Origin: Gammaproteobacteria bacterium
GTDB taxonomy: Bacteria > Pseudomonadota > Gammaproteobacteria > GCF-002020875
Length of the DNA: 48,952 nt
Assembly: GCA_018648825.1 (NCBI GenBank)
Contig: JABGQL010000078.1
Coordinates: forward strand, 1-48,952
Reading direction: 5' to 3'
Part shown: positions 4,794 through 44,324 of the stretch, in pieces
How positions within the stretch are numbered: position 1 is the first letter of the stretch
How the letters are laid out: each line of letters opens with the position of its first letter
The notes under the pieces: model-generated
What the model was told of the DNA's origin: nothing
Database searches by the model: none
The model's input: only the letters and a program-made list of their open reading frames with translations
Translations under genes and position numbers: made by a program

Positions 4794-7700
4794 ATGAAAC
4801 TGAGTAACCTCACCCTGCGTAACAAACTCTTGCTCACCATCCTCTTCACCTCGTCGATGTTGGTGTTGCCGTGGTGGTTTATCAGCTCCAGTCTGGAGCA
4901 GCTGGCGGAGAAGAGTGACAAGGCGAGTACCTCCAACCGTATCATCAAGCTGGCCAAAGAGGCGCGGATCGAGGAGAAGAACTTCATCCAGCGTAACAAG
5001 CCGGAGTACGCGGAGAATGTGGAGCGTATCCTCAAGGAGATGGAGGTCATTACCACGGAGAGTCTCAACCAGTTCCAGCAGCAGCAGAACATCAACCAGG
5101 TCAACCAGATTCGCCAGCGTCAGATCGCCTACCATCAGGCCTTCAGCCGCTATGTGGGTCTCGACCGCAACTCAGAGCAGCAGCAGCAGAGTATGGAGCA
5201 GTCGGCACGCGCACTGGAGCAGGCGGCACTCGCCCTGCGTAGCGACCAGAAGCAGCAGCGTGAGGGGCTGATGGGTCGCCAGGAGGAGCTGCGGGTGGCG
5301 ATCAAGGACAAGAGTAACAAGTTGGTGGGTGCCAATATACTGGTGGATCTCACCAATGTCGCGATTATCGCCAAGAAGGACTTTGTGCAGTTTGGTGAGG
5401 AGCGCTATGCCGATCTGCTGCGCAGTACCCTGCGGACCATGCGCCGCACAATCGATGACCTGCTGCCACGCTTCAAGAAGGTGCAGAATCTGGAGAAGTT
5501 GCGCGAAATGGGGCCGATGCAGCAGCGTTTTCTGGAGAGTTTCGAGGAGCTGGTCTCAACCAGAGAGGAGCTGAGAGAGGATGGCGAGCAGATGATGGTG
5601 GAGGAGGCGCGCCAGTTGGAGCAGCAGGCGCTTGCGCTACGGGTGAGCCAGAAGCAGCAGCGTCAGGCGCTGCTGGCAGAGCCGAAGCTGGATCAGGCCG
5701 CGTTGACCGACAAGCTGGAGAAGGCGGCGATGGCCAACCGCCTGATCAAACTCACCAAGGAGGCGCGCGTCGAGGAGAAGAACTTCATCCAGCGCGGGGA
5801 TAGAGCGTATATCGCCAAGGTGGAGGGGCTGCTGGAGGAGATTAATCAGCAGGCGGAGCTGTTTCTCCCGCGCTTCCGTCAGCCACAGAATATCCAGCAG
5901 ATGGAGCTGATTCATCAGAGTAAAGAGGCCTATGAGCGGGCCCTTGCACACTATGTGGAGTTGAATCAACGCTATATGGATATTCGTGCAGACATTGATG
6001 CGGTCGTCTCCGAGCTACAGCGCGTTGTGGTTGAGTTGATCGAGAGTCAAAACATCGATATTGCCGCCTACACCATGGAACAGGAGGGGGTTTTTGCCAA
6101 GATCGCCGACAAGGTGAGCAAGGCGGCGATGGCCAACCGGCTGATCAAGCTCGCCAAGGAGGCGCGCATTGAGGAGAAGAACTTTATCCTGCGTGGTGAT
6201 GAGCGCCATATCCAGGAGGTGCGCAAGGTGCTGTCAAGTCTGGAGGCGCTGGGGCAGCAGAGTCTGTTGGAGTTTGAGCAGTCGCAGAATGTGCGCCAGT
6301 TGAACACCGTACTGAGTGAGCTCGGCCTCTACCACAACCACTTCGAGAACTTCGTCTCCACCTATTCGGAGAGTCTCGACAGCCGTGCCCAGATGGAGCT
6401 GGAGGCGCGCCAGCTGGAGCAGCAGGCGCTGGCACTGCGCAGTGATCAGAAGCAGCAGCGGCAGCTGATTCAGACACAGACCGAGGAGGTGATCATCGCC
6501 TCACTGCTGGCTGCCGGTGCCGTGGTGGTGGTGCTGCTACTACTGATCTTGCGTAACCTCAGCGGTCGCATGAGCAATCTGGTGAAGCAGGCACAGGACA
6601 TTGCCGAGCGCAAGGTGCTGCAAGAGCGTGAGATTGAGGCGGCCACGGTAGTGGAGGATGAGCTCGGCGAGGTAGAGCAGGCGCTGATCGATATCAACCG
6701 CAGCTTCCTTGAGATCACCCGCCAGTCGGAGCGTATTGCCGACGGGGACTATGAGCAGAATATCACCCCGCGTTCAGCACAGGATAGTCTGGGCGTGGCG
6801 ATGGTGCAGATGACCGCAAACCTGCGTCAGTTGATGGAGGATAACGAAGCGCGCAACTGGGTGGATGGTGGTGTTGCTACCATCAATGAGACGGTGCGCG
6901 GAGAGCAGGACGGCACCCAGTTGGCCAACCAGGTCATTGAACAGCTCTGTAGCTACCTGCAGGCCAGTGTCGGTGCGCTCTATCTACGCGTAGAGGTCGA
7001 TTCGGAACAAGATAAGGGGGTGTCTGAGCCGATGCTGCAGCTGTTGGGCAGTTACGCCTTCAGTGAGCGTAAGAACCTCTCCAACCGTTACCGTTGGGGG
7101 GAGGGGGTTGTTGGGCAGGCCGCACTGGAGGGGAAGTTGATTCAGCTCTCTCAAGTGCCCGATGACTACATTAAGGTCAGCTCTGGACTGGGGGAGAGTA
7201 CACCACAGCATGTTGTGGTTGTCCCCTTCCTGTTTGAGGGAGAGGTGCGTGGTGTTGTAGAGATTGCCACGGTGGCGGCCCTCAATTCTGGCGTAAGAGA
7301 GATATTGGAGCGTAGTGTAGAGGCGATCGGCATCGCCTTTGAGGCGGTGCAGCGACGTGATGAACTGAATGACTCTTTGAAAATCTCGCAACAGTTGGCA
7401 GAGCAGATGCAGATGCAGCAAGAGGAGTTGCAGCAGACCAATGAGCAGCTCACAGAGCAGACCGAGGCGCTGGAGGTTTCACAGCGTGATGTAGAGGAGC
7501 GTAACCGTCGCCTGGAGGTGACTCAAGATGAGTTGAACCAACGTGCCGAGCAGCTCACCCAGTCGAGCAAATATAAATCGGAATTCCTCGCCAATATGAG
7601 CCATGAGCTGCGCACCCCGCTCAACTCTATCCTGCTGCTCTCGAAGATGATTGCCGGCGGCGATGTGGCGAAGAGTGATGACCAGCGCAAGCATGCCCAG

Positions 7701-9686: not shown

Positions 9687-10976
9687 ATGGATTCCGTGGA
9701 GTCACTGCCGATTCTGGTGGTGGATGACAAGCCACAGAATCTCTACTCTTTTCGCCATGTGCTGGAGGGGGGCGGGTTCTCCGTGGTAACCGCCGAGTCT
9801 GGAATGGAGGCGCTGCGCTATCTGCTGAAGCGGGATGTCTCTCTTATTCTGCTCGATGTGCAGATGCCGGAGATGAATGGCTTTGAGGTGGCGCAGGCGG
9901 TGCAGCGTAATCCACGTCACCGACAGGTGCCGATCCTCTTTATTACCGCCAGCCACCGCACCGATGATTTTATTAATCATGGTTATGATGTAGGGGCGTA
10001 TGACTATCTGGCAAAGCCGGTGGATGATCGCATCCTGTTGAATAAGGTGCGTCTGTTTCATACCCTCTATCTGCAGCAGCAAGCGCTGTTGGCAGAGCGC
10101 GAAGCACGTAAAAAAGCGGAGTCGAGAGAGCATTATCTGGCCTTCCAGTCCGGTGTTTTCGATATGTCGAACACCATGATGCACCATATCGGAAATAGCA
10201 TTCAGGGGATGGAGGCGTCCATTGCGCTGTTGAATGAGAGCCACACGGCACTTTCCCGCCTGCACCACTTCTACCAAAAGAGCGTTGCTGAGTTGGCCGA
10301 GGCGGAACAGCAGGACGATCACCCCACCATTGACCGTCTGCATAAGATGTTGCTGGATGCCAGCCTGAAGATGCCGGCGGTGCTGGAAAGTGAGTTGTTA
10401 TCGCCGATGGGTGAGTCTCTGGACTCTCTGCAACAGGGGGTTCGACATGTTGTCAAAATCATCCGGGTGCAGCAACGGGGCAGTAACCCCAGAATGGAGC
10501 AGCACTGTTTCTCTGTTAAAGATCTGCTGGATGATCTGGCGGTGATTGTTGGTGAGCGTCTGCAGAGAGATGAGATTGAGTGGCACCAGTGGGTCGATCC
10601 TGAGCTTGGGGAGATCTGTCTGCCACGCAATCAGCTGCTACAGTCTCTGGTTGCGTTGACACAAAATGGCATTGATGCGATTGAACAGCAGCTGCTACAG
10701 GGCGAGTTGAAGCAGGCTGAGGGGCGTATCGCAGTGCGTGTCAGTCGCGAGGGAGAGCGGTTGAGAATTGAGTTGGAGGATAATGGTGAGGGCATCAGTG
10801 AAGCTGTTCGTGCCCGTCTTTTCAGTTTTGGTTTTACCACCCGAACCAATGGGCAGGGGGTGGGGCTGCACAATGCGGGCAACTTTATCAGCAGCTGTCA
10901 GGGGACCATTGAGTTGCTCAGTGAAGGGGTGGGGGCTCGGGTGGTGGCGTCGCTTCCGCTACCTCTGGGGGAGTAA
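9687..10976 (+). CDS. Response regulator-kinase: REC plus unusual H-box and HATPase
   Basis: This is a 429-residue soluble protein. An N-terminal receiver (D57 in LLDVQMPEMNG, invariant K near 110 in AKPVD) leads to a coil, a dimerisation region with a non-canonical H-box (HHIGNSIQG, H166/H167), and an ATPase domain with N-box LVALTQNGIDAI, G1 DNGEGIS and G2 GQGVGLHNAGNF. The usual HELRTP is absent; H167-x-x-N170 may play that role. The receiver could switch the kinase on by phosphotransfer from the giant kinase directly upstream, whose TAA is immediately followed by this ATG. GGGAGAAG provides the ribosome site. The output partner is not obvious; the diguanylate cyclase next door is a candidate. 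Confidence 0.85.
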   Translation: MDSVESLPILVVDDKPQNLYSFRHVLEGGGFSVVTAESGMEALRYLLKRDVSLILLDVQMPEMNGFEVAQAVQRNPRHRQVPILFITASHRTDDFINHGYDVGAYDYLAKPVDDRILLNKVRLFHTLYLQQQALLAEREARKKAESREHYLAFQSGVFDMSNTMMHHIGNSIQGMEASIALLNESHTALSRLHHFYQKSVAELAEAEQQDDHPTIDRLHKMLLDASLKMPAVLESELLSPMGESLDSLQQGVRHVVKIIRVQQRGSNPRMEQHCFSVKDLLDDLAVIVGERLQRDEIEWHQWVDPELGEICLPRNQLLQSLVALTQNGIDAIEQQLLQGELKQAEGRIAVRVSREGERLRIELEDNGEGISEAVRARLFSFGFTTRTNGQGVGLHNAGNFISSCQGTIELLSEGVGARVVASLPLPLGE

Positions 10977-11020
10977 TAAAAGCGCAAGAAATGGTGTAAA
11001 TTTGTAATATAATCAGCCTT

Positions 11021-11272
11021 ATGCCTCATGCCAATATCAGTTCATCGTTGATTGAAATCAACCCGGATACGATTGTGAATAATCGAATTCTGGTGGTTGA
11101 CGATGAGCCGTTGGTGATCCAAACCTACCGCGAATCACTGGATACCACGACGTTTGATCTCAGTGACTTTGATTTTCTCAATACTGCTGCTCATCAAGAG
11201 GTAGATCCTCCGCTTGAGTTTGAGGTCAGCAGTGCAGTGCAGTGCAGGGCCAGGAGGCAGTGGAGTTGGTGA
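11021..11272 (+). CDS. N-terminal fragment of REC-GGDEF diguanylate cyclase (frameshifted)
   Basis: The first 75 codons encode the start of a receiver domain (RILVVDDEPLVIQTYRESL), then the frame is lost at an AGTGC repeat and ends at TGA 11270-11272 after a nonsense tail (CRARRQWSW). Removing one 5-bp copy restores the frame to the downstream GGDEF part and gives an uninterrupted protein of 359 residues. No ribosome site is obvious, and a TATAAT lies at 11008-11013, only seven bases before the ATG. This is either a pseudogene half, a phase-variable off state or a sequencing error. Confidence 0.7.
   Translation: MPHANISSSLIEINPDTIVNNRILVVDDEPLVIQTYRESLDTTTFDLSDFDFLNTAAHQEVDPPLEFEVSSAVQCRARRQWSW
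11231..11247 (+). repeat. AGTGC x3 short tandem repeat that breaks the reading frame
   Basis: Three perfect copies of AGTGC followed by AG lie inside the receiver-coding part of the diguanylate cyclase gene. With two copies the codons read S-S-A-V-Q-G-Q-E-A-V-E and join both halves in frame; with three, a TGA follows after nine codons. Gain or loss of a unit by slipped-strand mispairing is the natural explanation. Confidence 0.8.
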
Positions 11273-12105
11273 GGCAGGGGATTGATCAAGATGCCCCGTA
11301 TGCCGTGGTGTTTTTGGATATGCGGATGCCTCCAGGCTGGGATGGGCTGCAGACGGCAACAGAGATCCGTAAACTGGATGATAATGTCTATATCGTTTTT
11401 GTGACCGCCTATTCAGACCACTCTGTGAATGAGATGCAGGAGAGGTTGCACAAAAATACTCTGCTATTGCATAAGCCATTCTATAAAGATGTGGTACTAC
11501 AGATGGCAAGAACCTTCTGTATCAGCTGGGCGCGTGAACAGTGTCTGGTGCAGACCCGAAAGCGCCTGAGCCACCTCTCAGAACGGATGGCTGAGCAGGT
11601 TAACCGTGATGCACTGACAGAGCTCTATAACCGTTACTATCTGGATCGCCAGATGGAGCTTGAGATCAAAAGGGCACGACGTGAGCAGCAGCCCGTCGGT
11701 GTGTTGATGATCGATATTGACTGGTTTAAGGTCTATAACGACCAACATGGCCACCTGATGGGAGACCAGGCGCTACAGCAGATTGCAGTAGCGCTAAAAG
11801 ATGCAGTCAACCGCCCGGCAGATTTTGTTGCCCGTTATGGGGGCGAGGAGTTCTGTATGGTGCTTCCGAATACCGAACCTGAGGGGGTGGAAGAGGTGGC
11901 GGAGCGCGCGCGCGGAGCGGTAGAGGCGTTGCAGATTCAGTTTGTTGATTCGGCAGAGACGGATTTCCCTTACCTGACCATCAGCGTGGGTGGGGTGAGT
12001 CGAATACCGCTGCCGGGAGATCGGGACACCTCATTGATCGATGAGGCGGATCAGATGCTGTATCAGGTCAAATCGTCCGGTAAAAACCGAGTCTTGATTG
12101 CCTGA
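11242..12105 (+). CDS. REC (partial)-GGDEF diguanylate cyclase, C-terminal part
   Basis: This open frame of 287 residues from a GTG holds the rest of the receiver (phosphoacceptor D in VVFLDMRMPPGWDG, K in LHKPFY) and a complete GGDEF domain. The active site is GGEEF in RYGGEEFCMVLP. An RxxD inhibitory site (RPAD) lies five residues before it, so product inhibition is expected. The domain should make c-di-GMP from two GTP. Whether this half is translated alone is unclear: its GTG lies within the repeat and no ribosome site is visible. In the frame-restored form it would be a 359-residue phosphorylation-activated cyclase (REC-GGDEF), the only recognisable output of the surrounding kinase cluster. 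Confidence 0.8.
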   Translation: MQGQEAVELVRQGIDQDAPYAVVFLDMRMPPGWDGLQTATEIRKLDDNVYIVFVTAYSDHSVNEMQERLHKNTLLLHKPFYKDVVLQMARTFCISWAREQCLVQTRKRLSHLSERMAEQVNRDALTELYNRYYLDRQMELEIKRARREQQPVGVLMIDIDWFKVYNDQHGHLMGDQALQQIAVALKDAVNRPADFVARYGGEEFCMVLPNTEPEGVEEVAERARGAVEALQIQFVDSAETDFPYLTISVGGVSRIPLPGDRDTSLIDEADQMLYQVKSSGKNRVLIA

Positions 12106-12117
12106 AAAATGGTAATT

Positions 12118-12154
12118 CCTTCCCCCTAAATGGGGAAGGGACTTTTGTTTTTGC
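12118..12154. terminator. Terminator between convergent GGDEF and kinase genes
   Basis: CCTTCCCC and GGGGAAGG form an 8-bp stem with a 6-base loop at 12118-12139, followed by a T-rich tract on the plus strand (ACTTTTGTTTTTG). It lies between two convergent genes and probably serves the plus-strand gene. The same stem with nearly the same loop occurs at 32349-32370, so this may be a copy of an interspersed repeat. Confidence 0.7.
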
Positions 12155-12164
12155 ATTGACCTGA

Positions 12165-14882
12165 TTAAGTCCCTATAAATCTAGTCAGGGTCTGCTGTAG
12201 CTCTTGTCGATCAATCGGTTTTCCGATAAAGCCACTGCCGCCCACGGCATCAAAGGCGTCCCGGTGTTTTTGTAGAACATTGGCGGTGAGTGCGATAATC
12301 GGGATCTCGCTGTTGCGCGCACGAATCTGCTGAGTAGCCTCAATGCCATCCATCTCCGGCATCTGCATATCCATCAAAATTAGGTCAAATGGCTGCTCGG
12401 CCTCACGCGCGACAGCCTCAATACCGTTGTTTGCAGTGGTTACGGTCAACCCCATCGACTCCAGAATTCTGCGCTCCAGTAGCTGTAGTTCCGGGGTGTC
12501 TTCTGCCACTAGAACGGTTCCCTGCAGTTGAATTTTGGTGGTTCGTTTCTGGGTAGACGGCTTCTGCTGTGGGCTGTTGAGTGGTTTGCCAGGGCGATAA
12601 GGGAGTCTGAGGGTGAATGTGGAGCCTTGCCCATCCTCACTCTCAACGGTAACGGTGCCACCCATCAGTTGGGCGAGGTGGAAGGAGATGTAGAGCCCCA
12701 GACCGCTACCACCAAAGCGCCGTGAAATGGAGCTATCCGCCTGTTCAAAGCGCTTAAAGAGTCGATCAACCACCTCCGGCGGCATGCCGATCCCACTGTC
12801 TTTAACGCTAAAATAGAGTTGTTGTTCAGAGACCCAGCTACTTAGGGTGATGCTGCCTTGCTCGGTAAACTTGACCGCATTGCCAATCAGGTTGATGAGG
12901 ATCTGCCCACTGCGTTGGATGTCGCCAACCAGGAGGTGGGTGAATGGCCGCTGCTGTTTGATTGCAAAGTGCAGTCCTGAATCCTGCATACGCAGCGCAA
13001 ACATCTGTTGCAGGTCTTGCAGCAAAATATTGGGATCATACGGGGTCTCCTCAATGGTGAATTTCCCGGATTCGATTTTTGAAAGGTCGAGAATGTCATT
13101 CACCAGTGCCAGCTGTCTGCGTCCAGCGCTCTCTATTGACTGCACCAGTGCGCTATTTCTGTCGTCATGCTCCTGCTCTGCCAGCAGCTCACAGTTTCCG
13201 ATGATTGAGGTGAGCGGGGTGCGCAGCTCATGACTCATTGAGGCGAGGAACTCATCCTTACTGATGCTCGCCTGTTGGGCGTCTTCTAATGCTGTACGCA
13301 GCTGCTGCTCCATCTCAATACGTTTTGAGATATCACGGAATACCGCGACCGACCCACTGGTGCTGTTGTCTGTGGTGAGAGGGGTGGCGCTCAACTCAAC
13401 CGGAAGGAAATGGCCATCATGGTGTTTGAACCAGTCCTGATCGGTATAGTAACTCTTGCCTTGTGCAATGCTTTTATGGGTGGGGCAGTCTGCGGCAGAG
13501 ATCACAGTACCATCAGGGTGTCGGGCGTGAATGATGTCGTGGAAATTTTTGCCCAGTAGCGCTGTGTGGTGATAGCCCAATAGTGTTTCAGCGGCACGAT
13601 TTATAAAGATCAGCATTCCATCCTGATCGAGTGCATAGACTCCATCCTCCATGCTGGAGGTGAGACTCTCGGAGAAGCGGCGCGCGGACTCCAGCTGTGT
13701 ATAGCTCTCTTTCAGTCGTGTCTGTGTCTCCTGAATGGACTCCAGCAGTGCAGTGACCTCTCCCTGATTGTGTGCAATATCGATCTGCTCTTCAAAGTTG
13801 CCCGCACCAATGGCCTGTAGTTGGTGTGCTGCAGTATGTAGCCCCAGTACCACACGGCGCAGCTGGAGAAAGGCGAGCAGAATGGAGAGGATGAGTGCCA
13901 GTAGTAGCACTATAACCAGGAAGATGCTCTCGGTGATCTTCTGGTTGATGGTCTCTTTTAGCTCTTGCTGGATCAGTTGGTGGAGATCTGTTGCCAGTAG
14001 ATGGAGTAGGTAGATCGGTTCAGAGGCATCTTCAAAGAAGCCCTCTGGAGAGAGGCTGATAATAGCTGCGTCTACCAGCTCCCACTTCACCAGGTCACGC
14101 ACCCCCTGAATCTGATTGACTAGCTCGCCAAGGATGGAGAGGGTGCGCTCATTGAGGTTGTCTCCTTCATCTTCCAGTGAGAGACGTAGACGGATAAACT
14201 GATTCTCGGAGTCCCACAGGGTGCGCTCAATGCGTTGTAGCAGTAGGTCCTCCTCATCTTCACGAACAACGTTATGGTTATCTGAGGCGGCTCGAGCGAT
14301 GTATCCACTGCCCGCGCCGCGCAGTTGGGCCATCACCTCTCTCAGATTGGGGATATCTTGTAGCAGAATATGCTGATGACCGCTACGCTCAGGCAGGAGC
14401 TGGGCGATGGTGTGGTTGATGTGCTTAACCAGGTTACCCATCTCGATGAAGCTAAACTCATCTCCCTGTTGCTGTAGCCATAGCGCTTCGATGCGGTGGA
14501 GTGAGCGCTCAATCTCCTGGGTGCTGGCTAGAGATGTGGGGAGTTTTTCCTGCAGGTTTTTCAGCTGCTCCAGCTGGGTGTCAAGCTGCTGCTCTAGTGT
14601 TGTGAGGTGCTCTTCGGCAAAATCGTAGTGGCCCGGATAGTGGATGGAGATTTCGCGTAGGCCGCGATACTGTGTGGCCTGATCAAGCGCACTATAGAGT
14701 GGGCTGATCCACCCCAGTATCTGTTGTTGTTGCTGTAGCGTATCGATCTCACTCTTCCGCTCCCACAGGGTTTGACTGAACAGCATCAGTAGCGGTAGTA
14801 GCAGAATACCACCGCTCAGCAGCAGAGATCGTCCCATCCCCCCTTTTGGGAGGCGATTCAGTAGGTTAGGGTGTCGGTTCAT
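12165..14882 (-). CDS. Membrane hybrid kinase: sensor - HAMP - PAS - HK - REC
   Basis: This 905-residue protein has an N-terminal TM (about 19-37), a periplasmic helical sensor of about 270 residues rich in Gln and Leu, a second TM (about 315-340), a HAMP region, a coiled coil, a PAS domain (about 405-520), HisKA (H551 in MSHELRTP), an ATPase domain (N-box INLIGNAVKF, G2 FGGSGLGLY) and a C-terminal receiver (D838 in ILMDMQMP). The sensor is not assigned to a named family. The ATG overlaps the TGA of the preceding kinase gene (ATGA), which implies coupling. No strong ribosome site is seen. A near-perfect promoter 166 bases upstream (15048-15076) could express it independently. Confidence 0.9.
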   Translation of the reverse strand: MNRHPNLLNRLPKGGMGRSLLLSGGILLLPLLMLFSQTLWERKSEIDTLQQQQQILGWISPLYSALDQATQYRGLREISIHYPGHYDFAEEHLTTLEQQLDTQLEQLKNLQEKLPTSLASTQEIERSLHRIEALWLQQQGDEFSFIEMGNLVKHINHTIAQLLPERSGHQHILLQDIPNLREVMAQLRGAGSGYIARAASDNHNVVREDEEDLLLQRIERTLWDSENQFIRLRLSLEDEGDNLNERTLSILGELVNQIQGVRDLVKWELVDAAIISLSPEGFFEDASEPIYLLHLLATDLHQLIQQELKETINQKITESIFLVIVLLLALILSILLAFLQLRRVVLGLHTAAHQLQAIGAGNFEEQIDIAHNQGEVTALLESIQETQTRLKESYTQLESARRFSESLTSSMEDGVYALDQDGMLIFINRAAETLLGYHHTALLGKNFHDIIHARHPDGTVISAADCPTHKSIAQGKSYYTDQDWFKHHDGHFLPVELSATPLTTDNSTSGSVAVFRDISKRIEMEQQLRTALEDAQQASISKDEFLASMSHELRTPLTSIIGNCELLAEQEHDDRNSALVQSIESAGRRQLALVNDILDLSKIESGKFTIEETPYDPNILLQDLQQMFALRMQDSGLHFAIKQQRPFTHLLVGDIQRSGQILINLIGNAVKFTEQGSITLSSWVSEQQLYFSVKDSGIGMPPEVVDRLFKRFEQADSSISRRFGGSGLGLYISFHLAQLMGGTVTVESEDGQGSTFTLRLPYRPGKPLNSPQQKPSTQKRTTKIQLQGTVLVAEDTPELQLLERRILESMGLTVTTANNGIEAVAREAEQPFDLILMDMQMPEMDGIEATQQIRARNSEIPIIALTANVLQKHRDAFDAVGGSGFIGKPIDRQELQQTLTRFIGT

Positions 14883-16429
14883 ACGGAGTGGATAGTACCA
14901 TTTTCAGCATAAGAAAACTCGCATGTGCTGATGTTTTGTTTACGAGCAGTGCTTGAGCAGTGAGGTGCCCCCCAATCGTTGGACAGAAATAGGGGGAAGT
15001 TAAGACAATTATTCATGCGGTTTTTCAGTGAAAAATTGATTCCATAAAATATAGTTGTAGTGCTGTTTTTTGTCAACCATTTTATCCGATATTTGACCTG
15101 GCGGAGTGTGGTTAAGGGGTGAATAAGTGAGGTAATGCTGTGGTCAACCTCTGCAATCAACACCGTGCCAGTAAGTTGTGGTCGCTCGGCCCTCTGTTGC
15201 TGCACCAAAGGTACCATTGTGGTGGGCTCTGCTTGCTCTAGTGGAATCAGTAGCTCAAAACGAGAGCCCTTGCCCTGCTCACTCTCTACACGCAGTGTGC
15301 CCTGCATTAGCGTTGCCAGACTGGAGGAGATATAGAGCCCCAGCCCGGTCCCCCCAAAGCGGTTGGAGATGGAGTGGTCGGCCTGCTCAAACGGTTTGAA
15401 GATGCGCTCGGCGACCTCATGGGACATGCCGATGCCACTGTCTTCGACCACAAAGCGGATCTGGTGTGCTGCGCTATCCTCAGAAACCTCAAGGGTTACG
15501 CGCCCCTCTTGGGTGAGTTTGACGGCATTCCCCAACAGGTTGATAAGGATCTGTCCCAGGCGTTTTCCATCTCCAACAAAGTGGTGACTTTTCAGATGCT
15601 CCTCTTCCACCTGAAACAGCAGCCCTGACTCTTTGGCCCGCTTGCTGAAGATCATCTTGACCTCATGCAGCAGTACAGAGAGGTCGAACTCGGCATGGTC
15701 AATCTCAAACTTTCCAGACTCGATCTTGGCGCTGTCGAGAATATCATTCACCAGATAGAGCAGGCTTTTTCCCGAGATCAGAACCGATTGCAGTAGCCCC
15801 TGTTGATCTGTGTTGAGTTCACTTTCGGCAAGGAATTCACTGTTGCCGATGATGGAGGTGAGGGGGGTTCTCAGCTCATGACTCATTGAGGCCAGGAAGT
15901 CATCCTTGGCTATGCTCGCTGCCTTCGCGCTCTCCACGGCCTGCTGCAGCACCTCGTTGTTCATCAGCGCCTTGTTGAGCGCCTCAGTGGCACGGTTTTT
16001 CTCCTCCAGCGCCAGCTTTTCACAGTAGAGGGAGTGGAAGGTCTGCACCTTGTTGACCAGTACCTGGTTATCAATCGGTTTGGTCAGGTAGTCATAGGCC
16101 CCCACCTCATAGCCGTTACGGATAAACTCATCACTGTTGAGGGTGGCGGAGATAAAGAGGATTGGCAGGTCATGGTACTCCTGTCGCTGTCGAACCATAC
16201 GTGCGGTCTCAAAGCCGTTCATCTCCGGCATCTGTACGTCCATCAGTACCAGGGAGACTGGCTGTTTGATCAGATATTTCAGCGCCTTCACCCCGGAGTC
16301 GACGGTGACCACATCAAAACCGGCATTGGTGAGAATGGTCTTGAAGGAGTAGAGGTTCTCCTTTTTGTCATCCACCACCATTACGGGTGGGAGGCTCTTT
16401 TCGGTGGTTGAAAAATTGCTCATATTCAT
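14879..16429 (-). CDS. REC-HisKA-HATPase kinase with second receiver lost
   Basis: This is a 516-residue soluble kinase. A receiver (D64 in LMDVQMPEMNG), a coil, HisKA (H184 in MSHELRTP) and an ATPase domain (N-box NLLGNAVKL, G2 FGGTGLGLY) are intact. A linker then leads into the first strand of a second receiver (TGTVLIAE), exactly as in the neighbouring hybrids. After residue 427 the sequence changes to an 89-residue tail rich in Asn, Thr, Ser and Ile with no receiver motifs and no phosphoacceptor. The join is near 15150. The tail stays open up to the ATGA overlap with the next gene. The start at 16429 has AGGAAG eleven bases upstream. The kinase core should still work, but phosphate transfer to its own C-terminal receiver is not possible. 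Confidence 0.85.
   Translation of the reverse strand: MNMSNFSTTEKSLPPVMVVDDKKENLYSFKTILTNAGFDVVTVDSGVKALKYLIKQPVSLVLMDVQMPEMNGFETARMVRQRQEYHDLPILFISATLNSDEFIRNGYEVGAYDYLTKPIDNQVLVNKVQTFHSLYCEKLALEEKNRATEALNKALMNNEVLQQAVESAKAASIAKDDFLASMSHELRTPLTSIIGNSEFLAESELNTDQQGLLQSVLISGKSLLYLVNDILDSAKIESGKFEIDHAEFDLSVLLHEVKMIFSKRAKESGLLFQVEEEHLKSHHFVGDGKRLGQILINLLGNAVKLTQEGRVTLEVSEDSAAHQIRFVVEDSGIGMSHEVAERIFKPFEQADHSISNRFGGTGLGLYISSSLATLMQGTLRVESEQGKGSRFELLIPLEQAEPTTMVPLVQQQRAERPQLTGTVLIAEVDHSITSLIHPLTTLRQVKYRIKWLTKNSTTTIFYGINFSLKNRMNNCLNFPLFLSNDWGAPHCSSTARKQNISTCEFSYAENGTIHSV
14883..15150 (-). other. Segment replacing a receiver domain
   Basis: This 268-base stretch follows the interrupted receiver of the kinase gene and looks unlike its neighbours: it is richer in A+T, and its translation has no receiver motif in the gene's frame. 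A search by eye of the other minus-strand frames for a DMQMP-type motif also failed. No terminal inverted repeats or transposase motifs are recognised. It contains a strong promoter-like sequence. A deletion-replacement or a mobile-element scar is possible. Confidence 0.5.
15048..15076 (-). promoter_or_regulatory. Consensus-like sigma-70 promoter inside the replaced segment
   Basis: On the minus strand TTGACA (15076-15071) and TATATT (15053-15048) are separated by exactly 17 bases. It points toward the membrane hybrid kinase gene that starts at 14882. Its position within the replaced segment suggests that the rearrangement brought in a promoter. It has not been tested. Confidence 0.55.
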
Positions 16430-36471: not shown

Positions 36472-36499
36472 GGAACTATTCTACAATGCGTCTGTCCAT
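36472..36499 (+). promoter_or_regulatory. Candidate sigma-E autoregulatory promoter of rpoE
   Basis: GGAACTA (36472-36478) resembles the sigma-E -35 box GGAACTT, and GTCCAT (36494-36499) weakly resembles the -10 box GTCTAA, with 15 bases between them. It lies 38 bases upstream of the rpoE start and just outside nadB. Autoregulation is usual for this family, but the -10 match is poor. Confidence 0.4.
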
Positions 36500-36536: not shown

Positions 36537-37109
36537 TTGAAGCAGCAGGAGACAGATCAGGTTTTGGTGGAGCAGGTCCAGCGAGGGGACAAGCGCGCCT
36601 TTGATCTGTTGGTGCTGAAATATCAGCATAAAGTGGTGGCGCTGGTGAACCGTTTTGTCAAAGATCGCTCTGAGGCAGAGGATGTTGCACAGGATGCTTT
36701 TATTCGTGCCTACCGTGCGCTGGCAAATTTTCGTGGTGATAGTGCCTTCTATACTTGGCTTTATCGTATTGCGGTCAATACCGCGAAAAACTATCTGGTC
36801 TCACGGGGAAGACGTCCACCAACCGCTGATATCGATGCGGAAGAGGCGGAACTTTTCTTTCAAGAGCAGGGTCTGACAGAACAGGCAACACCCGAGAGTG
36901 AGCTGGTACGAGATGAGGTGCAGCAGACGTTGCAGGCGGCACTGGCAGCGCTTTCTGATGATTTGAGAATGGCAATCACCCTGCGTGAGTTAGAGGGGAT
37001 GAGTTATGAAGAGATTGCCGAGGTGATGGACACCCCCATCGGGACAGTGCGTTCCAGAATCTTTCGGGCCCGTGAGGCGATTGCAAAGCAGCTGGTGGCA
37101 GCCGCATAA
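36537..37109 (+). CDS. rpoE: Envelope-stress sigma factor RpoE (AlgU)
   Basis: This ECF sigma factor of 190 residues directs RNA polymerase to envelope-stress promoters. Region 2 contains FLDLLVLKYQ-like and FRGDSAFYTWLYRIAVNTAKNY segments; region 4 has ITLRELEGMSYEEIAEVMDTPIGTVRSRIFRAREAI. Both are nearly identical to E. coli RpoE. The alignment with E. coli places the start at TTG 36537 (LKQQETDQVLV matches MSEQLTDQVLV). No ATG gives this N-terminus, and AAAAGAG lies close upstream, so a TTG start and weak translation are likely. The order rpoE, rseA-like, rseC, degQ-like follows. The product should be held by the anti-sigma protein encoded next. Confidence 0.93.
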   Translation: MKQQETDQVLVEQVQRGDKRAFDLLVLKYQHKVVALVNRFVKDRSEAEDVAQDAFIRAYRALANFRGDSAFYTWLYRIAVNTAKNYLVSRGRRPPTADIDAEEAELFFQEQGLTEQATPESELVRDEVQQTLQAALAALSDDLRMAITLRELEGMSYEEIAEVMDTPIGTVRSRIFRAREAIAKQLVAAA

Positions 37110-37123
37110 ATTCAGGCGTAATC

Positions 37124-38044
37124 ATGACAAAACAGAGCAACGACCAATACGATCAACAATACAGTGAACAGCTCTCTGCGCTGATGGATGGAGAGCTGTC
37201 TGCAGAGGCGCTACAGCAACTGTTGAAGCGTGTGGAGCAGCGACCGCAGTTGCGCCAGCAGTGGTCCGATCACCATGCGGTGCGTCACACCCTGTTTGAG
37301 AAGCGCAACTGCTCTGTGGTTCACTCCTCAATTGCAGATCGTGTAGCCGCTGCGATTGAATCGGAACCCGTGGTATTGGCACCTGCTACGGCCCAACCTA
37401 AGGTACAAGTCGCTAGGCCAAAGATACCGGCTTGGGTGCCCTTAGCGTTGGCAGCCTCACTGGCAACGGTCACCTTTTGGGTGATGCAGCCACAGATCCA
37501 GAACAGTACCCAACAGCTGGCAAAGAGCAGTGTCGAGACCGAGTGGGTTGAGGTTGATGGGGCGTGGATTGAGCGCTGGGTCAACCCTATGGAGAACAGT
37601 ACAAGAGAGAGCAATGCAAGAGTGCGCTCATATCTGGTGCGTCATGACGAGAACCGCAGCAGTGCACAGGAGCGTGCCTCTCTGGTCTCGATGGCCCCCA
37701 GTGGGGTGGTCGCCCAGCAGCGTGGGGTTGCCAAGCGTATCGTGGGGTGGAAGGTAGGGTGGTTACCCGAAGGGTTCCAAGAGGTGGATACCTTGCAGCA
37801 TCAAATTCCCAGCTTTGGTGGGGCAGTGACTCACTTGGTGTTGAGTAATGGGGAGGCGGTCTTCTCTGTCTTTATTGAGAAATCTGCAAGCGAGGGGGAG
37901 AGTGAGCGGCAGATGAAAGAGCAAGAGCGCCCAGTTAATCTCTACAGCCACTCCCAGTTAGGGCATCGCATCACTGTTTTAGGTGAGGTACCCATGGATG
38001 TGGTGCGCAAGGTCGCGCGCTCTGTTGAAGCGCAGAGTGGGTAG
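37124..38044 (+). CDS. Anti-sigma-E protein: RseA fused to RseB C-terminal domain
   Basis: This 306-residue single-pass inner-membrane protein contains an RseA cytoplasmic domain (about 10-75: EQLSALMDGELSAEAL), a TM at about 102-121, and an RseA-type periplasmic segment (about 140-195: VRSYLVRHDENRSS). A domain that matches the C-terminal half of RseB/MucB follows at about 203-303: VGWKVGWLPEGF, THLVLSNGEAVFSVFIE and HRITVLGEVPMDVV. The N-terminal lipoprotein-localisation-like half of RseB is absent, and no separate rseB gene follows. The cytoplasmic part should bind RpoE; the RseB-like part may shield the periplasmic segment from DegS-type cleavage in cis. It lies 14 bases after rpoE. Confidence 0.8.
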   Translation: MTKQSNDQYDQQYSEQLSALMDGELSAEALQQLLKRVEQRPQLRQQWSDHHAVRHTLFEKRNCSVVHSSIADRVAAAIESEPVVLAPATAQPKVQVARPKIPAWVPLALAASLATVTFWVMQPQIQNSTQQLAKSSVETEWVEVDGAWIERWVNPMENSTRESNARVRSYLVRHDENRSSAQERASLVSMAPSGVVAQQRGVAKRIVGWKVGWLPEGFQEVDTLQHQIPSFGGAVTHLVLSNGEAVFSVFIEKSASEGESERQMKEQERPVNLYSHSQLGHRITVLGEVPMDVVRKVARSVEAQSG

Positions 38045-38049
38045 CTGTC

Positions 38050-38511
38050 ATGGTTAAAGAACATGCCACGGTTGTTGCGGTAGAGGGTGAGCAAGCCTGG
38101 GTGGAGACGGTGCGGCAAGCCTCTTGTGGTGGCTGTGGTTCGCAGTCTAGTTGCGGTACATCGACACTCTCGAAGCTGTTTGGTAACCGTCCCTTTCGGG
38201 TTGAGGTGAAGAACAGACTGCATGCAACGGTGGGGGCTGAGGTGACCATCGCGGTTTCAGAGCAAGGGTTGATGGGCGGTGCTGCGAGGCTCTATCTACT
38301 GCCTCTGTTGTTACTGTTTGCTGTGCTCGTTGTTATTCAGTGGCTGCTGCCCCAGCAGCCGGAGTGGCAGATCATCCTTTTATCGCTATTGTTGACTGCA
38401 ACTGGAGTAGAGTGGATGCGGGTACGGGGGTGGTTCGAGGTGGAGAACCTGATCCCAGAGATTACAGCAGTACATCAGCAATACATCAGCAGAACAACCA
38501 TCAAAAAATAA
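38050..38511 (+). CDS. rseC: RseC/MucC family membrane protein
   Basis: This 153-residue inner-membrane protein has two TM segments (about 81-103 and 107-123) and an N-terminal cytoplasmic part with the cysteine pattern C26-x2-C29-x5-C35 (CGGCGSQSSC). E. coli RseC has a comparable cysteine cluster and modulates sigma-E and SoxR reduction. The start is the ATG five bases after the upstream stop. Its place between the anti-sigma gene and the DegP-type protease is the classical one, apart from the missing rseB. Confidence 0.85.
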   Translation: MVKEHATVVAVEGEQAWVETVRQASCGGCGSQSSCGTSTLSKLFGNRPFRVEVKNRLHATVGAEVTIAVSEQGLMGGAARLYLLPLLLLFAVLVVIQWLLPQQPEWQIILLSLLLTATGVEWMRVRGWFEVENLIPEITAVHQQYISRTTIKK

Positions 38512-38590: not shown

Positions 38591-40096
38591 ATGAATCGGA
38601 AGATTGCCGGAATCAATACAAAACTCTCTCTGGGGGCCGCACTGTTGCTACTCTTCTCCTCTTGGAGTGTGATGGCCGCAAATGTCTCTGGACTACCGAA
38701 CTTTACCGAACTGGTAAAGCAGCAGATGCCAGCGGTGGTCAGTATCCGTGTGACCCAAAAGCGGACGATGGGGGGGATGGGGATGAATCCATTCTCTCAG
38801 GGGGGACCGAATGATCTCCCTTATGATGAACTCCCTGAGTTCTTTCGCCGTTTTTTTGAGGACCGAGGCATGGGGATGGGACCAAGCCCTCATGGCAATA
38901 AGCCACGCGAGTTTGAGTCTCAGGCGCAGGGGTCTGGTAGTATTTTGAGTGAAGATGGCTACATTCTCACCAATCATCATGTCATTGAAGATGCGGATGA
39001 GATTGTGGTGCGGCTCTATGATCACCGTGAATTCAAGGCGACGGTGATTGGTTCCGATGCTCGTTCTGATGTTGCGGTAATTAAGATTGATGCGGACCAG
39101 CTACCCACGATCAAAACCGGAACCAGTACGGAGCTGGAGATCGGTGAGTGGGTGCTGGCGATTGGCTCACCGTTTGGGTTTGAGATGTCGGCTACCGCTG
39201 GAATCGTTAGTGCTAAGGCGCGTAACATCTCCGAGGGGAGTAACCAGTTTAACTATGTCCCCTTTATCCAGACGGATGTGGCGATTAATCCCGGTAACTC
39301 AGGAGGTCCACTATTTAACCTAAATGGTGAAGTGGTCGGGGTCAACTCCATCATCTTCAGTAAATCCGGTGGCTATATGGGGCTCTCCTTTGCGATACCC
39401 ATTGAGATGGCGATGGACGTGGTCAAGCAGGTGAAGAATGGTGGGCATGTCAGCCGTGGTTGGTTGGGGGTGATGATACAGCCTGTTACCCGTGACCTAG
39501 CTGAATCCTTCGGTATGGATCGCCCCGTTGGCGCACTGGTGGCGCAGATTCTGGATGATGGTCCAGCCTCCAACTCTGATCTACAGGTTGGTGATGTGAT
39601 TCTGGAGTTCAATGGTCGCTTTGTAGAGAGCAACACCCATCTACCTCCCATCGTAGGGCGCACTCCTGTGGGGCACCCTGTACCTGTCAAGGTGATGCGA
39701 GAGGGGCGTGAGCGTATTCTCAAGATCAAGATTGGAGAGCTGCCTGCAGAAGAGGAGCTGGCCGATGCCCGACCACAATCCCCAATGCAGGGTAAAAAAG
39801 TGGAGAAGGCCGTCACCAAGCGTTTAGGAATGACCCTGAAACCACTCCCTAAACAGGTGCGTAAAGCGCGTTCTATCTCTGCTGGTGGGGTCTATATTGA
39901 TGCTGTCGATAAGGGTAGTGTTGCTGAGCAGTTTGGTCTGCAAAAGGGGGATGTGATTAGCCGCGTCAACTATGTCGTGGTTGAAGGGGTTGATCACCTG
40001 CTGGAGCTGCTCGACACTTTGCCTGAAGGGAGAGGGGTACCTGTCTACATCGTGCGTGATAAAGGGCCAATCTTCCTCGCACTGCGCCTGCCATAA
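38591..40096 (+). CDS. DegP/MucD-type periplasmic serine protease (Do family)
   Basis: This 501-residue HtrA protease has a signal peptide (NRK, a hydrophobic core at about 11-27, cleavage near VMAA). The catalytic triad is H130 (TNHHVI), D160 (RSDVAVI) and S237 (NPGNSGGP). Two PDZ domains follow: about 275-380 (SRGWLGVMI, LQVGDVILEFNG) and about 400-495 (VYIDAVDKGSVAEQFGLQKGD). Such enzymes degrade or refold damaged periplasmic proteins. The position at the end of the rpoE operon is that of mucD in Pseudomonas and differs from the separate degP of E. coli. AAGGAAA precedes the ATG. Its TAA overlaps the next ATG (TAATG). Confidence 0.93.
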   Translation: MNRKIAGINTKLSLGAALLLLFSSWSVMAANVSGLPNFTELVKQQMPAVVSIRVTQKRTMGGMGMNPFSQGGPNDLPYDELPEFFRRFFEDRGMGMGPSPHGNKPREFESQAQGSGSILSEDGYILTNHHVIEDADEIVVRLYDHREFKATVIGSDARSDVAVIKIDADQLPTIKTGTSTELEIGEWVLAIGSPFGFEMSATAGIVSAKARNISEGSNQFNYVPFIQTDVAINPGNSGGPLFNLNGEVVGVNSIIFSKSGGYMGLSFAIPIEMAMDVVKQVKNGGHVSRGWLGVMIQPVTRDLAESFGMDRPVGALVAQILDDGPASNSDLQVGDVILEFNGRFVESNTHLPPIVGRTPVGHPVPVKVMREGRERILKIKIGELPAEEELADARPQSPMQGKKVEKAVTKRLGMTLKPLPKQVRKARSISAGGVYIDAVDKGSVAEQFGLQKGDVISRVNYVVVEGVDHLLELLDTLPEGRGVPVYIVRDKGPIFLALRLP

Positions 40097-40335: not shown

Positions 40336-40372
40336 AATTATCAGTGATTTCATAACAACATTCATGTTTTGA

Positions 40373-40414
40373 CACCCTCCACCTTGCAGGGGGAGGGCAG
40401 GGGTGGAGGTAGAA
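40373..40414. repeat. G-rich palindromic intergenic repeat, copy E
   Basis: CACCCTCCACCTTGCAGGGG followed by GAGGGCAGGGGTGGAGGTAGAA matches copies A-D. It lies between the glutaredoxin and phoB genes and is translated if the upstream TTG of phoB is used, which argues against that start. Confidence 0.7.
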
Positions 40415-40461
40415 TGCATGAATTTATGCAACGCTTAATACAAGGAAAGAGGATAGGTTGT

Positions 40462-41169
40462 ATGACCAAGTCGGGTATCAAAATACTGCTGATTGATGAT
40501 GAGACTGAATTTAGAGAGATGATGAGTCACTACTTTCAGAAATTGAGTCATACACTAGTGGAAGCAGCTGATGCGGAGGATGCATGGAGCCAACTGATTG
40601 CAGATCGTCCTGATATTGTGTTGTTGGACTGGATGCTTCCAGAGATGGATGGGATTCAGTTATTAAAAAAAATCAGAGCCAAAAAACGCTTGAGGAGAGT
40701 GCCGGTGATTATGTTGACGGCACGTGCCGATGAGCAGAGCCGGATCGATGGGCTCGATGCCGGAGCCGATGATTATGTGATGAAGCCATTTTCTCTGGGG
40801 GAGTTGGATGCCCGGATTCGTGCAGTACTGCGCAGGCTAAAGCCACTGAGTGGTGAAGATGCAGAGGCCTCTTCCACTCAACAGATTAAGATAGATGTCG
40901 ATCGGCATAAGGTATTTGTGAATGGAAAACGTGCACACCTCAGCCCAACAGAGTTTCGCCTGCTCCATTTTTTGATGTCCCATCCCAATAAAGTGTACAG
41001 CCGTAACCGTCTGTTGAACCATGTTTGGGGAGAGATGGTGGTGGTTGAGGAGCGTACAGTGGACCAACATATTCGCCGCCTGCGTAAAGTGCTGAAAAAA
41101 CATGGGGGAAATCACAAGGTGATTGCCACTGTGCGAGGTTTTGGTTACCAGTTTACTGTAGATGAGTAG
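40462..41169 (+). CDS. phoB: Phosphate-regulon response regulator PhoB
   Basis: This is a 235-residue OmpR-type response regulator. The receiver has acidic pocket DDE near residue 12, phosphoacceptor D56 (LLDWMLPEMDG) and K near 105 (KPFSLGEL). A winged-helix effector domain follows (about 138-233: VDQHIRRLRKVL, RGFGYQF). Phosphorylated PhoB binds Pho boxes to switch on phosphate-starvation genes. I chose ATG 40462 with AAGAGG upstream; the open frame extends upstream to TTG 40369, but that part translates repeat E. The downstream histidine kinase, DUF47 protein and PiT permease support the PhoB identity. Confidence 0.88.
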   Translation: MTKSGIKILLIDDETEFREMMSHYFQKLSHTLVEAADAEDAWSQLIADRPDIVLLDWMLPEMDGIQLLKKIRAKKRLRRVPVIMLTARADEQSRIDGLDAGADDYVMKPFSLGELDARIRAVLRRLKPLSGEDAEASSTQQIKIDVDRHKVFVNGKRAHLSPTEFRLLHFLMSHPNKVYSRNRLLNHVWGEMVVVEERTVDQHIRRLRKVLKKHGGNHKVIATVRGFGYQFTVDE

Positions 41170-42208
41170 AAATAGAGCGGGGAAAGGGCAAAGCCTTTCG
41201 AGTCAATCGGTGCTGGATCTATTCAACGCCCTGCCAGAGATGATCCTACTGTTGGATGATCAATTTCGGGTAACGTGGTTTGATCGTTTAATGCGCCACT
41301 CATTCGGTTGGAAACGCAAAAAGACGTTGGGTAAGCCGCTGGATCAACTTTACCCGTTTTCAGAGGTCGACCTTCCCTTAGGGAGAGATGGGAATGCTCC
41401 GATCTGTCTGCATATGAGGTCCGGTGCAATACGTTGCTTCCATGTAGAGCTGATATCCTATCGAAATAAGCAGAAAATAGTGCGCTTGAGTGAGCCGGGT
41501 CAGCAGCTCAAACCAGAGACTCAACAGCGTGAATTTGTTGCCAATGCCTCTCATGAACTACGTACACCCTTGGCGATACTGGGCGGGTATCTGGAGCAGA
41601 TTTCAGTAGATGATCACGCTACAGTATGGAGTCGCCCACTGGAGGTGATGACGCTGCAGAAGGAGCGCATGCAGCAAATTATTGATGATATGCTGCAACT
41701 ATCCGGGTTGGAGCAGGCGGGCGAGCGTGTGCGCCAAGAGACTGTAGATGTGCCGGAGTTGTTGGATGAGTGTCTGCAAACCCATGCCATTCTGGCAAAA
41801 AAGAGAGATCAAAAGCTCACCTTGAAACTGGATAGACAGCTGTTGTTAAGGGGGAGTACACAGATGCTGAGAAGCGCATTCTCCAACCTGATTATCAACG
41901 CGGTCAAATATACCCAGAAAGGGGGGGCAATTACCGTGCGTTGGGAGCAGGATGGAGCTGTGGCACAGCTGAGTGTACAAGATAATGGGCCGGGCATTCC
42001 TAAGGCTGCTCAAAAACGGCTCACGGAGCGCTTCTATCGTGTAGATAAAGGACGCTCTCGGGAGATGGGGGGGACTGGATTGGGGCTCTCTATCGTACAA
42101 GGTGTACTACAGGCTCATGGGACCCTATTGGAGATAGAGAGTGGCAAGGGCAGTGGAAGCTGCTTCTATGCACAATTCCCTGCCAATCTACTGCTCAGCA
42201 GAGGCTGA
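41162..42208 (+). CDS. phoR: PhoR-type histidine kinase without membrane segments
   Basis: This kinase has 348 residues. A PAS-like domain (about 15-110: LPEMILLLDDQFRVTWFD) leads to HisKA (H131 in NASHELRTP, the phrasing of PhoR) and an ATPase domain with N-box NLIINAVKYT, G1 DNGPGIP and G2 MGGTGLGLSI. E. coli PhoR is about 430 residues and has N-terminal membrane segments; here none are found, so the kinase should be soluble or peripheral. An N-terminal loss is not obvious because the ATG overlaps the phoB stop by eight bases. PhoR normally senses phosphate through the Pst-PhoU complex, and no pst genes are in the window. Confidence 0.85.
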   Translation: MSRNRAGKGQSLSSQSVLDLFNALPEMILLLDDQFRVTWFDRLMRHSFGWKRKKTLGKPLDQLYPFSEVDLPLGRDGNAPICLHMRSGAIRCFHVELISYRNKQKIVRLSEPGQQLKPETQQREFVANASHELRTPLAILGGYLEQISVDDHATVWSRPLEVMTLQKERMQQIIDDMLQLSGLEQAGERVRQETVDVPELLDECLQTHAILAKKRDQKLTLKLDRQLLLRGSTQMLRSAFSNLIINAVKYTQKGGAITVRWEQDGAVAQLSVQDNGPGIPKAAQKRLTERFYRVDKGRSREMGGTGLGLSIVQGVLQAHGTLLEIESGKGSGSCFYAQFPANLLLSRG

Positions 42209-42267
42209 CACGGTTTACCGTAGAGCACTTTGAGAGCACCTTGGTAGCAAATGAGTTATTGATGGGT

Positions 42268-42301
42268 TGTTCATCAAGCTGTCACAATTGCCCTCTATAC
42301 T
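42268..42301 (+). promoter_or_regulatory. Candidate Pho box and -10 before the DUF47-pit operon
   Basis: TGTTCAT and CTGTCAC are separated by four bases (42268-42285). The second matches the Pho box half-site CTGTCAT at six of seven positions, the first at four. TATACT follows at 42296-42301 with ten bases between, the usual spacing for a PhoB-dependent promoter that lacks a -35 box. It would drive the PhoU-like, PiT and CNNM genes. Confidence 0.45.
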
Positions 42302-42347
42302 GCAGGAAAATTAATAGACGATATTACAAAAGAGGAGTTTGCTGGAT

Positions 42348-43028
42348 ATGGCAATGAATACGATTACTGGGCTTTTCGGTGGAGCCTCCCCGTTTACTGC
42401 GTTGCAGAAACATATGGAGTGTGTGCTCAGCTGTGTGCGAGAGATGCCATCGCTTATTGATGCAGTGATTGCAGAAGATCAAGAGCAGGTCAATGAGATC
42501 AAGGTGCGGGTTTTCAAGTCTGAGAATGATGCCGATGAAGTGAAAAATGGCCTGCGTGGGCATCTCCCCAAAAGCCTGTTTATGCCGGTGGATCGTCGTG
42601 ATCTGCTAGCGGTTTTGACGACCCAAGACTCTATTGCTGATGTGGCCCAAGATGTTGCAGGACTGTTTATTGAGCGCCCGATGGGGGTGCCAGAACCGAT
42701 GCAGCCACTACTGCGCACACTCACCCAGCGTTGTGTAGATGTGTGTGAACACTACGGTAAAGTGATCAATGAGTTGGATGAGCTGGTCGAGATGGGGTTT
42801 CGTGGACGTGAGGCCGACCAGGTTGAGCAGATGCTCGCTGAGCTTAATCGCATAGAGGATGAGACTGACGATATGGGTATCGAACTGACTCAGATTCTGC
42901 ATCGAAATGAGGATGACATTAATCCGGTATCGGTGATGCTATGGAGGCAGGTCATTGAGTGGATCGGTGATATTGCTGATAACGCTGAGAAATCCGGTGA
43001 CAGGCTGCGTCTGTTGATCGCCCGTTAA
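42348..43028 (+). CDS. PhoU-like DUF47 protein (TIGR00153 type)
   Basis: This all-helical cytoplasmic protein of about 226 residues belongs to the DUF47/PhoU-like family, which often pairs with PiT permeases. Acidic repeats characteristic of metal-binding helical bundles are seen (FKSENDADEVKNGLR, LNRIEDETDDMGIEL, IGDIADNAEKSGDRLR). ATG 42348 is chosen with AGAGGAG ten bases upstream; a TTG at 42339 is too close to it. It sits directly before the permease gene, so it probably regulates phosphate uptake through it. A candidate Pho box precedes the operon. Confidence 0.85.
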   Translation: MAMNTITGLFGGASPFTALQKHMECVLSCVREMPSLIDAVIAEDQEQVNEIKVRVFKSENDADEVKNGLRGHLPKSLFMPVDRRDLLAVLTTQDSIADVAQDVAGLFIERPMGVPEPMQPLLRTLTQRCVDVCEHYGKVINELDELVEMGFRGREADQVEQMLAELNRIEDETDDMGIELTQILHRNEDDINPVSVMLWRQVIEWIGDIADNAEKSGDRLRLLIAR

Positions 43029-43055
43029 AACTGATTAAGCAGAGAGGATTACATT

Positions 43056-44324
43056 ATGGAAAGTATTGCACTCTATGGCCCTTGGTTCTTGGGGATTGCA
43101 GTTGTTTTTGGTCTCTATATGACTTGGGGTATTGGCGCCAATGATGTCGCCAATGCGATGGGGACATCGGTGGGCTCTGGCGCGATCAGTGTTAGGCAGG
43201 CGATTATCATCGCCGCAATTTTTGAGTTTGCCGGAGCCATTATTGCGGGTGGTAACGTTACCAAGACCATTCGTAAGGGGATTATTGACCCCGCCAGTAT
43301 TGTAGATACCCCCGAAATTCTGGTGTTTGGGATGCTGGCTGCGCTGTTGGCGGCGGCGATTTGGTTGATGGTCGCCTCCTTTAAGGGGTGGCCGGTCTCT
43401 ACCACTCACTCCATTGTGGGTGCGCTGGTTGGGTTTGCCGTTGCAGGGATTGGCGTGGATGCCGTCAACTGGGGCAAGATTGGTCAGATTGCAGCCAGCT
43501 GGGTGGTCTCCCCTGCGCTGGGTGGCATCATCGCCTATATGTTGATGATCAGTATTCGTAATCGCATACTCAATACCGAGACCCCCTTTGAGAATGCAAA
43601 ACGTTACGGCCCCTACTATGTCTTCTTGTTAGGGTTTATCGTCTCTTTGGTGACCCTATTCAAAGGGCTGAAACACCTCAATCTAGAGCTGAGCACGATG
43701 GAGAGTGTGCTGCTCGCCATGCTGATTGGTGGAGCGATAGCGGCAGTAGGTTGGATGTTGATTCAACGTATTGAGGTTGATGTCGAGGCGGATAAAGCAT
43801 TTCACTTTGCCAGTGTGGAGAAGGTGTTTACCCCGATGATGATCTTCGCTGCTTGTGCCATGGCCTTTGCCCATGGCTCCAATGATGTCGCCAATGGTAT
43901 CGGTCCACTGGCTGCGGTGGTGAGTATCGTTAACTCGGGTGGTGAGGTGATGCAGAAGGCGGGGCTTCCAGTATGGATTCTACTGCTCGGTGGTGTCGGA
44001 ATTGTGGTGGGGCTGGCAACCATGGGCTATAAGGTGATGCGTACTATCGGTAACGATATTACCGAACTGACCCCAACGCGTGCCTATGCAGCCACGCTGG
44101 CGGCTGCAATTACTGTGGTGCTGGCCTCCAGAACGGGATTACCTGTCTCCACCACCCATATTGCGGTGGGTGCGGTGATCGGTGTAGGGTTTGCCCGAGG
44201 GATTGGTGCCATTGACCTGCGTATGGTGGGTAACATTGTGGTTTCATGGGTGATTACCCTGCCGGTTGCAGGGATTATGGCGGCCCTGTTCTTCTTTACA
44301 CTGAAGGGGATGTTTAGCGTGTGA
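43056..44324 (+). CDS. PiT low-affinity phosphate permease
   Basis: This 422-residue inner-membrane transporter has about ten hydrophobic segments and the two PiT signatures, GANDVANAMGTSVGSGAIS near residue 28 and GSNDVANGIGPLAAV near residue 275, one in each inverted half. Each half also has a WPVSTTHS or LPVSTTHI motif. PiT proteins carry metal-phosphate complexes, usually with Mg, driven by protons or sodium. The start has AGAGAGG upstream. The last four bases overlap the next gene's start (GTGA). The DUF47 partner lies 27 bases upstream. Confidence 0.92.
   Translation: MESIALYGPWFLGIAVVFGLYMTWGIGANDVANAMGTSVGSGAISVRQAIIIAAIFEFAGAIIAGGNVTKTIRKGIIDPASIVDTPEILVFGMLAALLAAAIWLMVASFKGWPVSTTHSIVGALVGFAVAGIGVDAVNWGKIGQIAASWVVSPALGGIIAYMLMISIRNRILNTETPFENAKRYGPYYVFLLGFIVSLVTLFKGLKHLNLELSTMESVLLAMLIGGAIAAVGWMLIQRIEVDVEADKAFHFASVEKVFTPMMIFAACAMAFAHGSNDVANGIGPLAAVVSIVNSGGEVMQKAGLPVWILLLGGVGIVVGLATMGYKVMRTIGNDITELTPTRAYAATLAAAITVVLASRTGLPVSTTHIAVGAVIGVGFARGIGAIDLRMVGNIVVSWVITLPVAGIMAALFFFTLKGMFSV

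Follow-up and report, generated by a model that had tools for sequence, protein, structure and literature searches.

In Escherichia coli and Pseudomonas, the release of sigma-E is described as requiring two signals: misfolded outer-membrane proteins, which act through DegS or AlgW, and lipid A, which acts through RseB or MucB. The periplasmic part of MucA contains a segment, alpha-I (residues 157-177), that binds the C-terminal domain of MucB and requires W158, R162 and H170, and a further segment, alpha-II (181-191), that binds the MucB N-terminal domain, where the lipid A-binding site is located (PMC7400510). RseB of E. coli buries the DegS site in its hydrophobic pocket, aided by a strand of the N-terminal domain (PMC7400510).

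Here we describe a locus in a 48,952-nucleotide stretch of gammaproteobacterial DNA (the window) that resembles both the RseA-RseB pair of E. coli and the MucA-MucB pair of P. aeruginosa. The shared elements are an RpoE-linked operon, an RseA_N domain, one membrane span, a putative alpha-I-like segment, an RseB/MucB C-terminal domain, a DegS/AlgW-type protease and RseP. In contrast to these systems, which use two proteins, a single protein is encoded here, and the genus that carries it is without the RseB N-terminal lipid-binding domain, the alpha-II motif and a separate rseB. The pathway is a known one with a new domain arrangement and the predicted loss of one input. A search confined to open-access papers turned up no earlier description of a fusion between RseA and RseB.

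Architecture and operon of the fused protein

The open reading frame at 37124-38044 (plus strand, like all operon features given below) starts with ATG and encodes 306 amino acids, whose domains were assigned using Pfam and phmmer. Residues 14-93 (37163-37402) match RseA_N, the sigma-E-binding part (PF03872; score 56.8 bits, cut-off 24; E 3.4e-15). The sequence-only reading had claimed that the C-terminal domain of RseB is joined to RseA, and proposed an HMM search of residues 200-303. This search bore the claim out, with MucB_RseB_C found at residues 207-302 (37742-38029; PF17188, 74.8 bits against a cut-off of 30.1, E 6.2e-21). Each of the genus's five fusions matched both Pfam families. When solved structures were compared by phmmer, E. 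coli RseA (1or7) aligned with residues 14-97 of the fusion, and MucB and RseB (6in9, 2v42) with residues 183/204-304. The cut-off of the NCBIfam RseA equivalog PRK10863 was missed (53.3 against 263 bits), with the model covering only residues 14-96.

Both domains lie in one open frame with a single transmembrane segment between them (residues ~103-121; 37430-37486), assigned from the hydropathy maximum. The peak occurs at the same position in 5/5 fusions, a topology read from hydropathy alone. Because this one strong hydrophobic segment separates it from RseA_N, the fused RseB domain is expected to be in the periplasm, the same side as for RseB. RseB is a separate soluble periplasmic protein; its C-terminal domain is encoded here in frame with RseA_N and a membrane segment. 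The domain architecture and the pathway assignment are well supported.

The fusion begins 14 bases downstream of rpoE, the sigma-E gene (36537-37109; TIGR02939, 305.9 bits, over the curated cut-off), and is followed by rseC/mucC (38050-38511; PF04246, E 1.8e-27) and by a gene for a degP/mucD-type protease with two PDZ domains (38591-40096; TIGR02037 over cut-off). Upstream of rpoE we noted a possible sigma-E-type promoter, GGAAC-N-TCCA (36472-36498), a weak candidate; a stricter sigma-E promoter pattern gave no match in the window. Four sister species carry an AAC-N18-TCTA element upstream of rpoE, with TCCA in the window. The occurrence of a sigma-E-like element before rpoE here and in the sister species may suggest autoregulation.

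Two further regions of the window were noted. Downstream of degP, positions 40369-44324 hold genes that read as response-regulator, histidine-kinase and PhoU-like, together with a phosphate transporter gene of the PHO4 family, assigned by Pfam; sister species (L033-L035) and the species G001 have lepA at this place. Hybrid histidine kinases and response regulators are clustered at 2223-16429; among them is a 1654-aa protein that combines an HBM-type sensor and a GAF domain with three receiver domains.

Distribution of the fusion and partner genes

The intact fusion frame is common to five species of the genus, with 54-58% identity to the window's protein, and the four sister species share the same locus order: nadB (reversed), rpoE, fusion, rseC and degP. 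Among 95 relatives compared, the two domains of the fusions were ~0.3 kb apart in one frame, and the other genomes with both domains had them in separate frames at a distance of roughly at least 0.9 kb. When a profile of the five fusions was run against 369 genomes of the class, full-length matches occurred only within the genus, and the non-genus matches listed covered the RseA part or the RseB part alone; this survey is a sample, and rare fusions elsewhere are possible. The order to which the genome with the most similar RseB domain (G033) belongs is represented here by two genomes, both with separate genes. The survey of relatives proposed earlier accordingly identifies the fusion as a genus-wide trait. 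The publicly named relatives are uncultured gammaproteobacterial metagenome assemblies.

The sensing half of RseB was said to be gone, and rseB to be missing from the operon; both statements held, and no rseB was found in the rest of the genome. The RseB N-terminal family (PF03888) was absent from the fusion protein and gave no match in the window's genome even at E<=10, nor any match, linked or unlinked, in six genus genomes, four of which are at least 90% complete. E. coli, used as a control, gave a match. Although the genome that contains the window is 88.5% complete, relatives at 97-99% give the same result. The RseB N-terminal lipid-binding domain was thus found neither in the fusion protein nor in the six genus genomes, and the fusion was the only MucB_RseB_C match in the window's genome. 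An unlinked rseB was rejected on the strength of the PF03888 searches.

RseP is encoded in the window's genome (L049; TIGR00054 well over cut-off), as is a DegS-type protease of 377 aa (L044), for which the best models, TIGR02037 and TIGR02038, both scored below cut-off. The genomes with an ortholog of this DegS (79-85% identity) are the same five that carry the fusion. Both genes are missing from the sixth species, G001 (95% complete), where RpoE also had no match above the family cut-off. On its contig L089 the order is ygfZ-nadB-(58 bp)-rseC-degP-lepA, with rpoE and the fusion both gone (junction 4436-4495). On another contig, L092 (10325-10379), the neighbours of G004 degS (L093) lie ~50 bp apart. 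G001 has therefore undergone two unlinked and precise losses, one of rpoE together with the fusion and one of degS, with rseC, degP and the flanking genes kept. An assembly gap as the cause was rejected, since the flanking genes are contiguous at both places. Because G001 precisely lost these unlinked genes, the fusion is tied to sigma-E and DegS. This gene content supports the view that the fusion acts with RpoE and DegS, the joint loss amounting to one evolutionary case. The description of the protein as a switch is supported indirectly, by the rpoE operon, by the presence of DegS and RseP and by the joint loss in one sister species. G001 itself is a case in which the sigma-E pathway has been lost in nature.

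Periplasmic segments and the fused domain

Following the membrane segment, the fusions share a conserved periplasmic block, TEWVEVDGxWxERWxNP (residues 139-155; 37538-37588; from the alignment), which adjoins the putative alpha-I and lines up with the sequence that precedes alpha-I in ordinary RseAs. AlphaFold predicted it as a low-confidence hairpin. The putative RseB-binding alpha-I (residues 164-179; 37613-37660) was recognized by spacing and conservation. The fusion keeps a Trp together with R166, Y170 and H174, in the R-x3-Y-x3-H spacing of MucA R162, Y166 and H170. R166, Y170 and H174 are invariant in 5/5 fusion species. The stand-alone alpha-I profile score was weak and near the best shuffled scores, and the identification is a tentative one, drawn from position, spacing and conservation, which fit. 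The linker that follows (residues 180-206; 37661-37741) is missing the PYxRIV alpha-II motif of ordinary RseAs, which is absent from the fusion.

All 46 RseAs from genomes with a separate RseB have the alpha-I motif, as do 5/5 fusions, against 0/9 RseAs from genomes where no RseB was found. The nine RseAs from genomes without detected RseB span eight families; a Fisher test on these counts ignores phylogeny and was not relied on. The RseAs of RseB-less gammaproteobacteria (L080-L087 and L064) are like the fusion in that RseA adjoins RpoE and no RseB N-terminal domain was found, but they lack both an RseB domain of any kind and the alpha-I motif, which the fusion has. These proteins, from several families, are without the YLVxH motif of alpha-I, and one of them (L084) ends directly after the membrane segment.

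The fused C-terminal domain shares its fold and sequence family with RseB/MucB. AlphaFold gave it a high-confidence fold, which superposed on MucB 6in9 with an rmsd of ~2.3 A over 106 columns (Foldseek). In neither of two AlphaFold runs was alpha-I docked on the domain. Combined alignments of RseA, RseB and fusion sequences misplaced the RseA tails and were kept out of folding.

The fusion differs from RseB/MucB in that the N-terminal half is missing, the domain is not separately secreted and several otherwise invariant positions are changed. These positions, counted against 49 separate RseB C-terminal domains in MucB numbering, are invariant or nearly invariant in the separate domains. D247, a central inter-domain residue of MucB (PMC7400510), is D in 49/49 separate domains and N in 4/5 fusions. 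Position 249 (L249) is hydrophobic in all 49 and E/D in every fusion, and G272 is G in all 49 and R/Q in every fusion. G267 is replaced by M in 5/5 fusions, and A273 is also changed. Without the N-terminal domain as a cover, such exchanges would become permissible; alternatively, they may reflect a new surface function.

Proposed mechanism and competing explanations

On balance we favour a reading in which the fusion is a lipid-blind, one-piece anti-sigma-E whose RseB C-terminal domain would clamp the RseA segment in cis. Retention of the alpha-I motif, loss of alpha-II and the exchange at D247 count in its favour, and the undocked alpha-I of both AlphaFold runs and its weak profile score count against it. 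Its origin was probably one in-frame deletion that removed the rseB signal peptide and the lipid-binding N-terminal domain. The fused domain would then hold the adjacent alpha-I in cis as a permanent 1:1 tether that substitutes for the separate partner, and this clamp would set a higher threshold for cleavage by DegS. Once misfolded outer-membrane proteins had activated DegS, it would cut first and RseP second, whereupon sigma-E would be freed. No lipid input is expected because the lipid A-binding N-terminal domain has been lost, and the switch should be blind to the usual RseB ligands and answer to the DegS signal alone.

The fused domain might instead be a structural cap that provides periplasmic bulk or stability, so that RseP could not cut before DegS had removed it, while the DegS step itself went unregulated. 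Such a cap would agree with the size exclusion at RseP established for E. coli RseA. It would also agree with the absence here of the RseB N-terminal-domain strand that helps to shield the DegS site (PMC7400510); given the part this strand plays in E. coli, a C-terminal domain on its own may fail to cover the site. Retention of the alpha-I motif, which RseB-less RseAs do not have, suggests specific contact and not mere bulk, and we consider the cap possible but unlikely. The exchanges at L249, G272 and G267, conserved in 5/5 fusions, could form a new surface, as expected if the remodelled domain were a sensor in which a ligand other than lipid A, or a redox or pH state, opens the hold on alpha-I and licenses DegS. 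This is rather improbable, given that no pocket or ligand was identified and that removal of the N-terminal cover accounts for these exchanges as well.

The ~30 residues between alpha-I and the domain would permit either arrangement, so two fusions might also swap domains, each gripping the other's alpha-I, and the switch would be a dimer. The sequence gives no preference for this over the cis form, and we attach little weight to it. That the fusion is a functionless, decaying relic or the product of misassembly or a frameshift is scarcely credible. It would fit with the division of the genomes into many contigs, the metagenomic origin of the named relatives' assemblies and the loss of the gene in one species, but five species keep an intact frame at the identities given above with a well-conserved RseB domain, and the loss in G001 was precise and shared with rpoE and degS, unlike decay. 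An assembly artefact was rejected, being contradicted by five assemblies.

Here the lipid-sensing half of RseB has been removed and the binding half kept and permanently attached, which separates the holding role of RseB from its lipid-sensing role. The fusion would be a natural construct for asking if a grip on RseA is enough to set the threshold and if the pathway can do without its lipid arm.
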